From a virus, in the IMG/VR virus record IMGVR_UViG_3300047157_000023, positions 1 to 53,991 of that record: a stretch of DNA of 53,991 nt; one strand, written 5' to 3'. The position numbers were made by a program, and so were the translations under genes. Shown one piece after another: positions 1 through 40,602 of the stretch. Position 1 is the first letter of the stretch; each line of letters opens with the position of its first letter. Below the pieces are notes generated by a model. The model made no database searches, was not told the DNA's origin, and was given only the letters and a program-made list of their open reading frames with translations.

Positions 1-478
1 GCTCTCTACCCCAACGCCATGTCAAGGTAATGTTAGTTTCTTTCCAACGATCATTCATATATAGTCGATACGCTTCATGTGTATCTGCATGTTCTGAATA
101 ATCAACTCCACGTTCTAAGTTCCTAGCACAGTTGGCAAAAGGTGTCAAGCTCTTCACTAGGAAAATCTCCACTATCTGCATACTTTTGAAAGTCAGTAAG
201 CAGATTAGCAGACTTATGCAACCCATCTTTTTGTAAGAATAGGTGTGACATATGGGACTAAGCAACCACTTGAAGTTATCTCGTGATTGCCTAGCCCAGA
301 TTGTACAAGGGTGGTTCAAGTACGCCACCTTGTACACCGATAGGTCAGTATCTGGAGACAGTACACGCACTGCGGTAGACAACATCTGTGCAGACTCAAG
401 TATCATCTTGTTCTTGCGGATGTCATCTAACCACTGTGCGGACTGCATCGGACACCGATCCAGTGCGAATATATTCAT
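1..478 (-). CDS. Phage protein resembling pyrimidine-dimer glycosylase-like family (3' end missing, frameshifted)
   Basis: The ATG at 478 follows a GGAG about a dozen bases upstream. The readable product starts MNIFALDRCPMQSAQWLDD and continues with KMILESAQMLSTAVRVL, NHPCTIWARQSRDNFKWLL, HKSANLLTDF and AYRLYMNDRWK. I associate this order of motifs with a phage protein often annotated as related to pyrimidine-dimer DNA glycosylases, but the function in phages is not established and I am unsure of the family. Two indels break the frame: one near 255-262 and one extra base in the A-run at 137-140. The end lies beyond position 1. It is the last leftward gene of a group of small genes that starts at 1565. 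Confidence 0.55.
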   Translation of the reverse strand, partial: MNIFALDRCPMQSAQWLDDIRKNKMILESAQMLSTAVRVLSPDTDLSVYKVAYLNHPCTIWARQSRDNFKWLLSPICHTYSYKKMGCISLLICLLTFKSMQIVEIFLVKSLTPFANCARNLERGVDYSEHADTHEAYRLYMNDRWKETNITLTWRWGRE

Positions 479-483
479 TTGTA

Positions 484-847
484 TTAATTACTCCTATTGA
501 TTATAGCTTGTGCAAAGTCATTGAGCTTACCACTAAGCCATGTATTATCAGCCTGTTGAGCTTGCTTTAGCTGCATCAACTCAGCCTTGACTCTTGTTAT
601 GCTCAGTCTTTAACACCTTGAAGTTCCTAGCAACTCCTAGCAGCTCTAGTAGGCATAGGCTAGACGCTCTGGCAACTTTTTAGAGAGAAGCCATGCTTTC
701 TAAGCCACTGATTAAGTGGTACGTCTAGCCATGCCATAGTGGTCAGCAAACCTCCTGTTGAGTTATATCATGGATTGCCCATGTACATCTGACACGCCTG
801 CGATTTGAACATCTACACTGAAACGAATACCTTCTTGAATTACCCAT
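484..847 (-). pseudogene. Small helix-turn-helix protein gene, heavily frameshifted
   Basis: An AGGAGG precedes the ATG at 847. Successive frames give IQEGIRFSVDVQIAGVSDVHG, then RFADHYGMARRTT followed by NQWLRKHGF (looks like a helix-turn-helix), then a helical tail ARNFKVLKTEHNKSQ and LMQLKQAQQADNTWL ending NRSN at 484. About five or six indels are needed to join these. Each piece still reads as plausible protein, so read or consensus error is more likely than long decay. A DNA-binding role is an inference from the helix-turn-helix-like segment only. Confidence 0.45.
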
Positions 848-870
848 AATAAACCTCCTACAGTTTGGGT

Positions 871-1114
871 TTAAATTAAACTGCGTACTTGTGCAGTCAC
901 GTTATAGTCTGCGACAAACCATCCACCATTGAATGACATATCATACAGACCAAAGTTTGGATCAGACTGTTGTATTTTTGACACAATATCAGACAGACTT
1001 TCACCAGACATCTCTACAGTTTTGGTATCATCACCATCAAAGTACGTACCCTTCTAACACATACTCATTTACAGAACGAGCCGCCTCACGCACTGCGGCA
1101 TAAGCAAACTTCAT
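871..1114 (-). CDS. Hypothetical protein, about 80 aa, frameshifted
   Basis: The ATG at 1114 opens MKFAYAAVREAARSVNEYV. One extra base near 1050 shifts the frame, after which TYFDGDDTKTVEMSGESLSD, VSKIQQSDPNFGLYDMS and FNGGWFVADYN follow to a stop at 871. I do not recognise a family. It is mixed alpha/beta in composition with no membrane segment, and sits in a tight leftward row of small genes. Confidence 0.45.
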
Positions 1115-1123
1115 GACGCATTT

Positions 1124-1224
1124 CTACGCCTCATCTTGCTCCATACTGGGCACGTTACCGTGCTTTCTGGACACGTTTACTTGACAGACAACTTTCCTGT
1201 CGCACGTAATTCATCCATTAGCAT
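1124..1224 (-). CDS. Very short hypothetical protein, about 33 aa, frameshifted
   Basis: ATG at 1224 (or 1218) overlaps the stop of the preceding gene at 1212-1214. The product reads MLMDELRATGKLSV, then after a probable missing base, QVNVSRKHGNVPSMEQDEA with a stop at 1124. Overlapping start and stop suggest translational coupling. No family recognised; the call rests on gene packing only. Confidence 0.3.
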
Positions 1225-1565
1225 TTTCCATTATCCTTTCACAAATTGATCGGATGCGTGTAATGACAATAACTTTACCATCATCACCATATAGCACCCA
1301 CTTTTTATTATTATAGATTAGTCTCATTGTACTCATCCACAAACTCCACATTATAATCCAATACCTCCACCCATTTAAGACCATACACGTGTGCATAGTA
1401 GCCGTTGACGTGCCCACTTGACGCACTATGTCTAGGACAAGTTGCATTTTTCAATACATCTGGCTCACCACGAAAGTTTTCTATCGGATCATTCAATGAT
1501 ACTGGTTGCATATCATTCTCGGTTACTAGGCGAAATGTTGCCCCATTAAAGTTTTCTTCAATCAT
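1212..1565 (-). CDS. Hypothetical phage protein, about 117 aa, frameshifted
   Basis: GGAG lies just before the ATG at 1565. The product begins MIEENFNGATFRLVTENDMQ and includes DVLKNATCPRHSASSGHVNG and LKWVEVLDYN. The frame breaks near 1320 and resumes as YNNKKWVLYGDDGKVIVITR, ending MENANG at 1212. I have a loose memory of similar small proteins in marine phages, without a known role. The start codon sits inside one copy of the ATGTTATAC repeat that also dots the control region. Confidence 0.5.
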
Positions 1566-1597
1566 GTTATACTCCTTCTCTCTATATTAACATGAGA

Positions 1598-2167: not shown

Positions 2168-2214
2168 TTTTTAATCTCCAATTTTATATGAGTTTACGTT
2201 GTCGATATAACTTA

Positions 2215-2264
2215 ATGTTATACCGCTAATGCACACTGTAAAATGTGCATTAAAAGTATAACAT
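2215..2264 (-). promoter_or_regulatory. Large two-part hairpin in leader of the 1661-2167 gene
   Basis: ATGTTATAC (2215-2223) pairs with GTATAACAT (2256-2264). Inside, after a 3x3 internal loop, TAATGCACA (2227-2235) pairs with TGTGCATTA (2244-2252) around an 8-base loop. Together this is 18 perfect base pairs. It can act as an RNA hairpin in the leftward transcript or as a DNA dyad. The outer arms are copies of a repeat found elsewhere in this region. Confidence 0.6.
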
Positions 2265-2850
2265 AGGGCGCTAAGTGTAAAACCTAACGCCCTAAAACTT
2301 TTTAACTTTCTGGTGAATATCCGTACTGTTTAAACCTTAGTTAATGGCTCAAACAAAATAACCACTTGATATAGAAAGTTTGCCTATACCGCATTGTTAT
2401 TTGGGACTGTTACCCTTTTTCATTTCCCACTTTGGGGAGTGCCCTTTTCAACCTCTTGTCTATGCTCAAGCATTTCAAATACTTAGGGCTGTTTCTATAT
2501 GAAACCACGCTATTCATTTAAACATAATTTAAACTAGTTTGAACTATACTCTAAGACACTAGCCGCTATTCAACTTCGGATCAAATAACTAGCTAGAATT
2601 GTTTCAGCTTTAATCGGCCTATGTGACGTTGCCATAATCACATACCATTTTATTTAGATGGAAGTTTTGCCAATCATCTCCAATGGTTTAAGAGATAATA
2701 GCCTCCGATAATCTGGGGCAAAACTAAATGTCAAATAACGTGGGCTTGCAAGTCTAGGGCTGAAATCTCACTCCGATTTCTGCACCCTGAAAATTGAAAA
2801 ACGACAACTCTCAAAAACGCTATAGATCAGAGTATCAAAATAGCGTCAAG
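2215..2850 (-). ncRNA. Candidate large structured noncoding RNA
   Basis: This stretch has stops in all frames on both strands but is full of exact stems: 2264-2270/2288-2294, 2490-2494/2500-2504, 2559-2563/2592-2596 with inner 2565-2570/2584-2589, 2619-2625/2638-2644, 2663-2671/2717-2725 with inner 2673-2680/2692-2699, 2762-2767/2775-2780 with 2756-2759/2785-2788, and 2817-2823/2840-2846. Leftward orientation is favoured because the transcript then carries purine-rich segments such as GGGTAACAGTCCC, and a loose promoter (TTGACG at 2844-2849, TATAGC at 2819-2824, spacing 19) sits at its start. Size and phage context recall the ornate RNAs GOLLD and ROOL, but I cannot match a consensus. It could instead be an origin or control region with many dyads. 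Confidence 0.4.
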
Positions 2851-2963
2851 CGAAAAAGTGTAAAAAAGATAAAAATAATTTTTTCAGTAGTAGAAGCAGC
2901 GTGTACTTTTTTGGATTGTAGTGAATAAAGTTTAACGACACAAGTATAGTCAAAATATGTCAT

Positions 2964-2979
2964 ATTCAAATAGTTGAAT
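2964..2979. repeat. Dyad repeat ATTCAA-N4-TTGAAT, copy 1
   Basis: The 16-bp element ATTCAAATAGTTGAAT is an inverted repeat. A second copy differing by one base lies at 3262-3277. Both are in the gene-free control region and are the size of a dimeric repressor site. Confidence 0.5.
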
Positions 2980-3222
2980 GTTGCATCAGATCAAACGTAG
3001 TGAGCCGTGTGGAGTTTCCTAGGAACTGCGGTATAGTTGATACAGGATTTTTTGCGTAACTGGTGAGCTAATACAGCAGCTCTGTATTCAAATTTGCTTT
3101 CGAATTTTAGCCGATATTTGGCGATGTTCACTCTCAGGAAACTTTACTGGTAGGCACATCTGTCCACCCAGAGGAAACATGATAGTATTCACGGTTTGTT
3201 CTCTTGTTCTGTTTCTGTTCTA

Positions 3223-3240
3223 ATTGAGAATGGTTCGCAA
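3223..3240. repeat. 18-bp repeat ATTGAGAAT..., copy 1
   Basis: ATTGAGAATGGTTCGCAA here and ATTGAGAATCACTCGCAA at 3305-3322 share 15 of 18 bases. The partial dyad TGAGAAT-N-NNTCGCA loosely resembles a Fur-type box, which is an inference from shape only. Confidence 0.5.
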
Positions 3241-3261
3241 CTAGGATAATGACCGTGTGAT

Positions 3262-3277
3262 ATTCAAAAAGTTGAAT
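3262..3277. repeat. Dyad repeat ATTCAA-N4-TTGAAT, copy 2
   Basis: ATTCAAAAAGTTGAAT has the same half-sites and spacing as the copy at 2964-2979. It lies between the two 18-bp ATTGAGAAT repeats, so the two repeat families are interleaved. Confidence 0.5.
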
Positions 3278-3304
3278 ACTAAAGTTGTACATAAATCTTT
3301 TGTT

Positions 3305-3322
3305 ATTGAGAATCACTCGCAA
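3305..3322. repeat. 18-bp repeat ATTGAGAAT..., copy 2
   Basis: Second copy of the element at 3223-3240, on the same strand, 82 bp further right. It directly precedes a copy of the ATGTTATAC motif at 3333-3341. Confidence 0.5.
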
Positions 3323-3332
3323 ATATAACGTT

Positions 3333-3468
3333 ATGTTATACTATAACACCAGTGATGTAATAGTATATTGTATTACATACTCAATAAAAACAATATGTTA
3401 TACATATTCGAATATGTGAATGTGTTCTGATAGTATTCTGCGAGATAGATGTTACGTTATAACATAAC
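3333..3468. repeat. Cluster of ATGTTATAC / GTTATAACAT motifs
   Basis: ATGTTATAC occurs at 3333-3341 and 3395-3403 (inside the dyad ATATGTTATACATAT, 3394-3408), and the reverse complement GTTATAACAT at 3456-3465. The same motif is at 1564-1572, 1650-1661 (perfect palindrome ATGTTATAACAT), 2215-2223 and 2256-2264. Repetition on both strands around the control region suggests a binding site for a phage or host regulator. Confidence 0.5.
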
Positions 3469-3641
3469 GGGTGCATGGGTCACGGGGGGTATGCCCGTAC
3501 GTATATATACCCAATGACAGAGATGGGGTTTTTTAGTTTGGACAAATTGTCGCACCTTGTAGCTAAAACAGCCTGTTAACCTTTATTTTGTAATCACAGT
3601 GTATAAATTACAATGTTTTTTAAAATAAATAAAAATAGTAG

Positions 3642-3670
3642 TTGACTTCGGCTGCAATATACTGTATAAT
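3642..3670 (+). promoter_or_regulatory. Sigma-70-like promoter of the rightward operon
   Basis: TTGACT (3642-3647) and TATAAT (3665-3670) are separated by 17 bp, an excellent match to the bacterial housekeeping consensus. Transcription would start near 3677, about 170 bases before the first rightward gene, and two 19-bp palindromes lie in the first 90 bases of the transcript. Confidence 0.75.
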
Positions 3671-3694
3671 TACTTATAGTATTACATAAAGAAT

Positions 3695-3713
3695 ACTTAA
3701 AGTAACTTTAAGT
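3695..3713. promoter_or_regulatory. 19-bp palindromic operator-like site, copy 1
   Basis: ACTTAAAGTAACTTTAAGT is a perfect palindrome around one central base. It starts about 18 bp downstream of the predicted start site of the 3642 promoter, a classic operator position. An identical 19-mer lies at 53449-53467 upstream of the integrase gene. Confidence 0.65.
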
Positions 3714-3748
3714 TTTAATTATTACTAATATATTAATAGTTATTATAT

Positions 3749-3767
3749 ACTTAAGGTAACTTTAAGT
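3749..3767. promoter_or_regulatory. 19-bp palindromic operator-like site, copy 2
   Basis: ACTTAAGGTAACTTTAAGT differs from the other two copies by one base. An extra half-site ACTTTAAG follows at 3770-3777. It lies between the two rightward promoters (3642 and 3818). Confidence 0.6.
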
Positions 3768-3817
3768 ATACTTTAAGACAAAATCTAAACTTTTTTTGTC
3801 GTCCCACTTAAAAAGTG

Positions 3818-3846
3818 TTGACTTTACCCTAAAAATTAGGTATAAC
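3818..3846 (+). promoter_or_regulatory. Second promoter-like sequence directly before the first rightward gene
   Basis: TTGACT (3818-3823), 17 bp, TATAAC (3841-3846). The -10 box ends three bases before the ATG at 3850, so a transcript from it would start at or just inside codon 2. Either it serves downstream genes, or translation starts at a later methionine such as codon 6. Confidence 0.45.
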
Positions 3847-3849
3847 TAG

Positions 3850-4104
3850 ATGAAGAAACCAACAATGTACTCTTCTGACAATGTCGTAGAGGAATTTTAT
3901 AGGGCATTAGCTTCAGAAGACGAAGGTAAACTCCGTAGAGTGCACATTCCTAGATCCGATGTGTTCTACATTAGAGAAAAAATACGAAATGATACAGGTA
4001 TAAAGTACTCTCTGGACAGGGTAGAGAGAGCTATGTACCTTGAAGGTCATTTAAAGGCTAGGGATGTTCTAGATCCCAGAAGAAAACGAGAATGGGAAGA
4101 CTAA
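3850..4104 (+). CDS. Hypothetical protein, 84 aa, first gene of rightward operon
   Basis: Highly charged, soluble protein starting MKKPTMYSSDNVVEEFYRAL, with RSDVFYIREKIRNDTGIKYS and a C-terminus rich in Arg/Lys/Glu. The arrangement of short helices could be a small DNA-binding or head protein, but I recognise no family. It is the first gene after the operator-bearing promoter and ends exactly where the next gene begins. The start is uncertain because a -10 box abuts the ATG and no clear ribosome site is seen; the methionine at codon 6 is an alternative. Confidence 0.65.
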   Translation: MKKPTMYSSDNVVEEFYRALASEDEGKLRRVHIPRSDVFYIREKIRNDTGIKYSLDRVERAMYLEGHLKARDVLDPRRKREWED

Positions 4105-4374
4105 ATGGATGGCTTAAAGATACCAGTAGCTCTAGTTTTTGCAATGGCTATCCAATTAGTAGCATTAGTTTGGTATATTAGTAATCTAGTCCACGATATA
4201 GAACATCTGCAGAACACAGTAGTAGAACAGCAGGAACAATTAGACGTATTAAACCTAGATGTAAACGATCTGTGGAACTTTTGCACCTTCACTGAAAACA
4301 AATGGGCTGAAGCCTACGTTGGAGACATGGTTTATGAACGTGTCTGTGGAAATAAAGAGGTTATAGAGAAATAA
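4105..4374 (+). CDS. Small membrane protein with coiled coil, lysis cassette
   Basis: An 89-aa protein with one N-terminal hydrophobic segment (about residues 6-27) followed by a heptad-like stretch (HDIEHLQNTVVEQQEQLDVL) and a short C-terminal domain with two cysteines. This type II membrane topology resembles inner-membrane spanins or holin-associated proteins. It stands directly before the holin-like and endolysin genes and overlaps the next start by one base, so a role in lysis is likely but not shown. Confidence 0.6.
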   Translation: MDGLKIPVALVFAMAIQLVALVWYISNLVHDIEHLQNTVVEQQEQLDVLNLDVNDLWNFCTFTENKWAEAYVGDMVYERVCGNKEVIEK

Positions 4375-4703
4375 TGGTAATAGACTTTGACGTAGATGGT
4401 GATGGTAAGATCACAGAACAAGAAGTAGCTATGAAAGAACGTATGCTTGAAGTAGAGCTACGTGAAGAGAAGGCTGAGTCACAAAAGAAGATGGCTTGGA
4501 TAGCTATGGTGATGATGATCGGCTTTACAGTTGTTCTATTTACACCACTAATGTCAGATACACGAGTAGCAGCCCTTGCAGATTTGTTAGGGTTGTTTTA
4601 TATTGCACAAACTGGTATAGTAGCAGCATATATGGGAGCTACAGCTTACATGGCAGGAAAGCCAATGGGCAATAAGGTAGCAATGAAGAAGGATATGAGA
4701 TGA
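4374..4703 (+). CDS. Holin-like membrane protein with an EF-hand
   Basis: The first 20 residues carry a calcium-binding EF-hand loop (DFDVDGDGKITEQEV). A charged helix follows, then two hydrophobic segments (about residues 40-58 and 68-90) and a basic tail. Two closely spaced membrane helices, small size and position directly before an endolysin fit a holin that releases the endolysin through the inner membrane. The EF-hand is unusual and could tie the protein to divalent cations. The gene overlaps the endolysin start by four bases. Confidence 0.65.
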   Translation: MVIDFDVDGDGKITEQEVAMKERMLEVELREEKAESQKKMAWIAMVMMIGFTVVLFTPLMSDTRVAALADLLGLFYIAQTGIVAAYMGATAYMAGKPMGNKVAMKKDMR

Positions 4704-40570: not shown

Positions 40571-40602
40571 AAAAGGGGGCTAAACGCCCCCTCTTTTTTT
40601 TA
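40571..40602. terminator. Bidirectional intrinsic terminator between convergent operons
   Basis: AAAAGGGGGC, loop TAAAC, GCCCCC, then TCTTTTTTT: a perfect 6-bp GC stem with a T-run on the plus strand and TTTTG on the other. It lies between the last rightward gene and the last leftward gene, and so ends both operons. Confidence 0.85.

Follow-up and report, generated by a model that had tools for sequence, protein, structure and literature searches.

The window analysed here is the whole of an IMG/VR virus record (53,991 bases), whose nearest named relatives are the Roseobacter phages CRP-2, CRP-9, CRP-207, and CRP-603. It is organized as two divergent operons around a 1.68-kb noncoding region (2168-3849), namely a plus-strand operon at 3850-40568 and a minus-strand operon that runs from 2167 to 1 and then from 53775 to 40600. 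On the contig of a relative the minus-strand operon continues beyond window base 1, with ~2.1 kb apparently being absent between the window ends. The relative L001 has coding sequence homologous to window 1-1570, which in the window is split over several frames in a manner suggestive of assembly or sequencing errors at the end of the contig.

On the plus-strand side of the noncoding region, two good sigma-70-like promoters were identified (3642-3670 and ~3820-3849), both with hexamer pairs kept in relatives, and between them lies an imperfect inverted repeat of ~89 bp (3687-3775, 82% self-complementary), also kept in relatives. Because the second promoter (TTGACT-17-TATAAC) stops 3 bases short of the ATG at 3850, the first plus-strand gene may have a leaderless mRNA. 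A noncoding element, GGGTATGCCCGTACGTATATATACCCAATGACAGAGATGGGGTTTTTTAG, at 3469-3540 is kept in more than 30 related phage loci, including ones without the RNA and gene 1 described below. Palindromes such as ATGTTATAACAT recur over 2168-3480 and at the end of gene 1 (1620-1660), and are possibly operators of some phage regulator.

The minus strand of the same noncoding region carries a structured RNA that leads directly into gene 1. The features of this part of the locus, listed in the direction of transcription, are as follows.

2864-2837, minus: weak promoter candidate TTTACA-16-TATTTT, from sequence
2844-2849, minus: weak candidate -35 element TTGACG, preceded by T-rich DNA; the near clade (clade 1) keeps TTGAC or TTGTC here
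2168-2815, minus: entire structured RNA, forming the gene 1 leader (minus-strand covariation; 12 member contigs)
2756-2788, minus: 5' hairpin AGGGTGCAGAAATC..GATTTCAGCCCT, variable among relatives
2728-2740, minus: boxA-like motif CGUUAUUUGACAU, present in all 11 distinct members and better conserved than any other stretch beyond the modelled helices
2717-2725, minus: pseudoknot stem S1, 5' strand AGUUUUGCC, pairing with 2663-2671 (90/90 cells paired)
2704-2708, minus: long-range helix S3, 5' strand AUCGG, pairing with CCGAU at 2612-2616, with weaker support
2673-2699, minus: inner hairpin AUUAUCUC/GAGAUGAU, whose loop contains the S2 5' strand ACCAUU
2663-2671, minus: pseudoknot stem S1, 3' strand GGCAAAACU, pairing with 2717-2725
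2644-2649, minus: pseudoknot helix S2, 3' strand AAUGGU, pairing with ACCAUU of the inner hairpin loop and crossing S1
2621-2643, minus: hairpin S0, AUGUGA-UUAUGGCAACG-UCACAU, with 8 sequence versions in 10 phages (60/60 cells paired)
2567-2587, minus: linker hairpin UAUUUGA-UCCGAAG-UUGAAUA; near-clade versions UACUUAC/GUAAGUA and UGCCUAC/GUAGGUA (alignment, by eye)
2312-2415, minus: three-way junction, domain B (covariation; covariance model R1)
within 2312-2415, minus: domain B P0/P1, GGGUAACAGUCC..GGAUAUUCACC
within 2312-2415, minus: domain B P2, AAAUAAC/GUUAUUU plus GGUAUAG/CUAUAUC
within 2312-2415, minus: domain B P3, UGUUUGAGCC-AUUAACUAA-GGUUUAAACA
2264-2294, minus: hairpin H2, UAGGGCGUUAGG..CUUAGCGCCCUA (covariation)
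2215-2264, minus: hairpin H1 (AUGUUAUAC plus UAAUGCAC; loop; GUGCAUUA plus GUAUAACAU), with three covarying pairs in the near clade
2165-2181, minus: ribosome binding site GGAG and gene 1 start codon, from sequence
1661-2167, minus: gene 1, 168 aa, basic (pI 9.7), immediately following the RNA in all members
1598-1627, minus: intrinsic terminator AAACACCCGA..UCGGGUGUUU plus UUCUC (-18.2 kcal/mol), directly after gene 1

The 3' end of the RNA runs into gene 1, while its 5' end at ~2815 is an estimate from a weak promoter candidate. The gene 1 leader is roughly 570-650 nt long. No good sigma-70 promoter was convincingly identified upstream of the RNA, nor a good -10 hexamer downstream of TTGACG (2844-2849, minus). 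The preliminary description of this DNA had noted stops in all frames, and no convincing ORF was indeed found in 2215-2850. A hidden or decayed gene was considered and rejected, as no ORF is conserved in the relatives. A tmRNA-like reading of GCAAAUGCAAA was likewise discarded given the lack of a tRNA-like domain, and no tRNA or tmRNA was found in the window.

Homologous loci were collected from IMG/VR contigs using gene 1 (1661-2167, minus), the third plus-strand gene (4374-4703), and a DNA pattern as queries. The RNA is present in 12 related marine phage contigs, two of which (L101 and L102) are identical within it, which leaves 11 distinct sequences. A gene 1 homologue in L079, only 45% identical, led to a second, far clade (clade 2), which includes L079, L101, L102, L103, and L055. 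Conserved blocks and compensatory changes are visible in a seven-sequence alignment, and a common set of helices, an H-type pseudoknot among them, is retained in the 11 distinct sequences despite a near-total turnover of sequence. Covariance model R1 found the RNA in none of the other fetched loci.

The pseudoknot follows from the placement of S2, whose 5' strand sits in the hairpin loop inside S1 and whose 3' strand lies downstream of S1, so that the two helices cross. S1 takes the form UAGAUCUAC/GUAGAUCUA or UUGAGCUAC/GUAGUUCAA in other phages, and S2 occurs in 6 sequence versions among 10 phages (ACCAUU/AAUGGU, GUCAGU/ACUGAC, AUCGGU/ACCGAU, AUUGGU/ACCAAU, GUCGGU/ACCGAC, and GUCACU/AGUGAC), with 60/60 cells Watson-Crick. 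The weakest helix of the model is S3, with versions UUGGU/ACCAA and UCGGU/ACCGA in relatives; GUCGG was tried as an alternative partner for its 3' strand and rejected, as S3 in the form given fits the far clade better. The S0 loop, UUAUGGYAAC, is conserved within the near clade. L003, the most altered member, is without the normal sequence of the pseudoknot part, and by eye has CUUUAGG/CCUAAAG crossed by GGUAG/CUACC in its place. Towards the 3' end, the order on the minus strand is the three-way junction (P0-P3), H2, H1, GGAG, and the gene 1 start codon. Two members (L042 at 3217-3448 and L012 at 221-452) carry an insert of ~76 nt at the tip of the P2 hairpin of domain B with the remaining fold kept, and the far clade has a separate GUUUC/GAAAC-type hairpin at the place of H1.

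To quantify covariation, helices were fixed beforehand and double changes then counted on MAFFT alignments, with shuffles and slid structures as controls. In domain B plus H2 (9 sequences), double changes affected 22/43 pairs, and the double-change cells numbered 64, compared to 18±3.6 for shuffles and no more than 11 for slid partners. In the pseudoknot domain, double changes were found in 8/30 pairs in the near clade and 12/42 pairs in the far clade, with 0/500 shuffles as high in either case. L042 and L012 were left out when covariance model R1 was built, and the model recovers them at 139 and 138 bits, respectively. Model R2, built on the pseudoknot domain of the near clade, matched the far clade at the expected coordinates or close to them, but with E from 0.03 to 7.5; these matches alone do not prove homology.

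These helices also identify the strand of the RNA. Across 810 cells of hand-chosen helices, 745 are Watson-Crick, 56 are G·U when read on the minus strand, none is A·C, and 9 are other combinations. Since the helices in this count were picked by eye, which favours G·U, the two strands were also compared by RNAalifold, and the minus strand folded better in 3/3 domain alignments (-16.6 vs -12.2, -45.6 vs -30.4, and -44.7 vs -27.8). Folded by itself, this stretch of the window does better than chance, with z = -6.0 on the minus strand and z = -3.2 on the plus strand, as judged against only 20 shuffles per strand. A plus-strand reading was rejected on the G·U versus A·C count and the RNAalifold comparison. 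At the level of sequence comparison, the minus strand of 2168-2815 is hence shown to encode a large, conserved, structured, and pseudoknotted RNA that forms the leader of gene 1.

The preliminary description had proposed a large structured RNA of ~600 nt, perhaps of a new class, and had named covariation in homologous loci and Rfam models of GOLLD, ROOL, and other large RNAs as ways to check it. Covariation across the 11 distinct homologous sequences is strong and bears out this proposal. No Rfam 15 covariance model matched the window or ten member loci at the gathering cut-off, and searching the region at E up to 10 returned only irrelevant families, with neither GOLLD nor ROOL among them. 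As judged from these model searches, the RNA belongs to no Rfam family and is not GOLLD or ROOL, and no description of such an RNA in roseophages turned up in the open-access literature. The stems that the preliminary description had reported as exact lie where it placed them; of the four for which it gave coordinates, 2559-2563/2592-2596 and 2663-2671/2717-2725 are exact, the latter being one arm of the conserved pseudoknot, whereas 2565-2570/2584-2589 and 2673-2680/2692-2699 are present and each include one C.A on the plus strand, i.e. a G.U on the minus strand. The extent it had given (2215-2850) does encode a large structured RNA, although the structured element goes on to ~2168 and ends at the gene start. 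The minus-strand assignment, the pseudoknot, the boxA-like motif, the role as leader ahead of the first early gene, and the terminator after that gene were all absent from it.

A conserved stretch, UAUUUGACAU, sits immediately before S1, between folded parts of the RNA. We compared it to a boxA matrix derived from nine plasmid-borne Rhodobacterales rRNA operons, whose leaders share the boxA (T/C/A)GCT(C/T)TTTGA(C/A)A(T/A). The conserved stretch is the best-scoring boxA site of the window RNA, equalled in 4/300 dinucleotide shuffles; among other members, 0/300 shuffles were as good for L003, 2/300 for L055, and 14/300 for L071, where the match is weaker, while in L079 a different site slightly outscores the conserved one. 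Because the sites of the different members are homologous, they are not independent of each other. The phage motif agrees with the host boxA at 11-12/13 positions and has a C to A change inside CTCTTT. Phage and host also have a C/A variant in common, with TTTGAAAT found in both L071 and Sulfitobacter.

Independent support for the boxA reading comes from the early leaders of other marine phages. In VpV262 and Vibrio phage 1.077.O, with early leaders of 0.9-1.0 kb, an exact GCTCTTTAACA is located 490 and 418 nt ahead of the first gene (L110 544 and L113 588; 2/1000 shuffles each), and these sites fit the gammaproteobacterial boxA consensus GYTCTTTAANA (PMC5725501). The early leader of roseophage SIO1 includes a near-exact boxA, CGCTGTTTGACATTG (L127 ~5817; 1/300 shuffles). 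The form of the motif tracks the host, with GACA in alphaproteobacterial and AACA in gammaproteobacterial phages. A match in cobavirus T5S1 was discarded as not significant, 102/300 shuffles being as good. Overall, the boxA-like nature of the conserved motif is well supported by these comparisons, and the sites in SIO1, VpV262, and 1.077.O suggest that early control is Nus-dependent in Zobellviridae. The long leaders of VpV262 and 1.077.O also appear highly structured; a search of the VpV262 leader with covariance model R1 for the present RNA yielded nothing significant.

All members have a basic gene 1 product (pI 9.4-9.9). No recognizable homologue (including any N homologue), RNA-binding family, or fold was found for it, nor were relatives detected in bacterial genomes at the sensitivity used or in GenBank phages by tblastn; one weak match was obtained in a cobavirus. 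A weak Foldseek match to VpV262 ORF1 (probability 0.91, E = 0.015, TM 0.33) was unsupported by hhalign, which returned nothing, so that homology between the two was given no weight in the argument. Behind gene 1, a strong hairpin followed by a U tract is found in every member with sequence there, and its stem covaries; in the window, the U tract is short. Only two strong minus-strand terminators were identified in the operon, namely this one and the far-end one at 40573.

We consider that there is about an even chance that the RNA is a cis-acting leader for processive antitermination, of the nut/put type and far larger than the known ones. This reading is based on the boxA match to nine rrn leaders, the boxA sites in other marine phage leaders, and a lambda-like layout of the locus. 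Host RNA polymerase would start just upstream of the structured RNA, and the nascent transcript would then present the boxA-like UAUUUGACAU, presumably to NusB/S10, with the pseudoknot and the three-way-junction domain coming next. These RNA elements, whether or not aided by the basic gene 1 protein, would alter the polymerase such that it could pass the conserved intrinsic terminator that follows gene 1 and continue into the replication operon (up to ~18 kb). Several considerations count against antitermination: the boxA match is imperfect, neither a simple boxB hairpin nor an N homologue was recognized, no good promoter was identified upstream, a fold of 500-600 nt far exceeds the known need (~70 nt for put, PMC9378689), the U tract of the gene 1 terminator is short, and the genes beyond this terminator could have their own promoters. 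No match to the RNA was obtained at loci without gene 1, and since these relatives also lack the boxA, other solutions must exist. More tentatively, abundant uncultured marine phages may possess a new class of giant antitermination RNAs, in which a host-type boxA, a pseudoknot, and a three-way junction would together assemble a modified host polymerase, at ~10 times the size of put or nut.

Several alternative functions can be considered for the same structure. Its size of ~600 nt, pseudoknot, several covarying domains, and phage location, along with a degree of structure well beyond the needs of a simple regulatory leader, would also suit a stand-alone ornate noncoding RNA of the GOLLD/ROOL type (a scaffold, cage, or sponge) processed from the early transcript, in which the boxA would be incidental or an aid to transcription. 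We regard this as unlikely, as neither a terminator nor a tRNA was found at the 3' end, the RNA always stands directly ahead of gene 1 with its ribosome binding site, and Rfam gave no match. The invariable pairing of RNA and gene 1, the basic character of the gene product, and the closeness of H1 and H2 to the ribosome binding site would instead be expected of an autoregulatory or translational leader, to which either a ribosomal protein of the host or the product of gene 1 would bind so as to control gene 1. This appears quite improbable considering that the conserved structure does not visibly sequester the ribosome binding site, that the most conserved stretch lies ~560 nt upstream of the start codon, and that gene 1 matched no RNA-binding family or fold.

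Phages with RNA-primed origins exist, and the divergent region is the sole long noncoding stretch, with AT-rich, palindrome-rich DNA next to the RNA at 2850-3850, so that a replication primer or origin element could be envisioned. We deem this very unlikely, since it leaves the boxA-like motif, the gene 1 terminator, and the strict link to gene 1 unexplained, and since there are relatives that share the flank at 3469-3850 without the RNA. The preliminary description had left room for dyad-rich regulatory DNA, i.e. operators or cruciforms with no RNA function, a view to which the recurring palindromes such as ATGTTATAACAT lend themselves. It is contradicted by the 56 G·U against 0 A·C on one strand, which indicate an RNA rather than dyad-rich DNA, by the RNAalifold preference for the minus strand, and by a pseudoknot of crossing helices conserved in differing sequences, leaving this the least probable reading.

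To our knowledge, large structured phage RNAs are rare and their function is mostly unknown. For the present RNA, support from covariation is strong, the genomic context does not vary, and a specific mechanism can be put to the test. Should it act in antitermination, Nus-dependent early control would reach from lambdoid to marine podovirus-like phages infecting alpha- and gammaproteobacteria, and phages would be capable of assembling very large RNA devices on the elongation complex; should it be a stand-alone RNA instead, it would represent a new ornate RNA class. Under either reading, a covariance model and named members are available for experiments.

Compared to known systems, the layout of the locus resembles lambda pL-nutL-N-tL1, with a boxA-like site in the early leader, a small basic first gene, a terminator behind it, and a long operon beyond. 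Lambda nut is ~60 nt long with a single boxB hairpin, whereas the present leader is about 570-650 nt and includes a pseudoknot and several domains, has the pseudoknot stem S1 rather than a simple short-loop boxB hairpin after boxA, and precedes a gene 1 without homology to N. Where the host rrn leader reads TGCT(C/T)TTTGA(C/A)AT, the phage RNA reads CG(U/A/C)UAUUUGA(C/A)AU; it differs from the Rhodobacterales leader by an A for C/U at position 5 in most members and does not include the other conserved rrn leader sequence. A boxA site is also carried by the noncoding early leaders of VpV262 and 1.077.O, which are long, and of SIO1, which is short. GOLLD and ROOL are of similar size, phage-borne, and elaborately structured, with covariation and pseudoknots (PMC12286853); unlike these RNAs, which are often near tRNA genes, the present one has no tRNA nearby and directly precedes a protein gene bearing a ribosome binding site. 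In HK022, the ~70-nt put RNA with its two stem-loops gives antitermination by itself (PMC9378689). The phage leader described here is about ten times longer, with a different fold, a pseudoknot, and a boxA-like site, and like put it would act in cis, as a structured RNA that opens an early transcript and enables polymerase to pass terminators.
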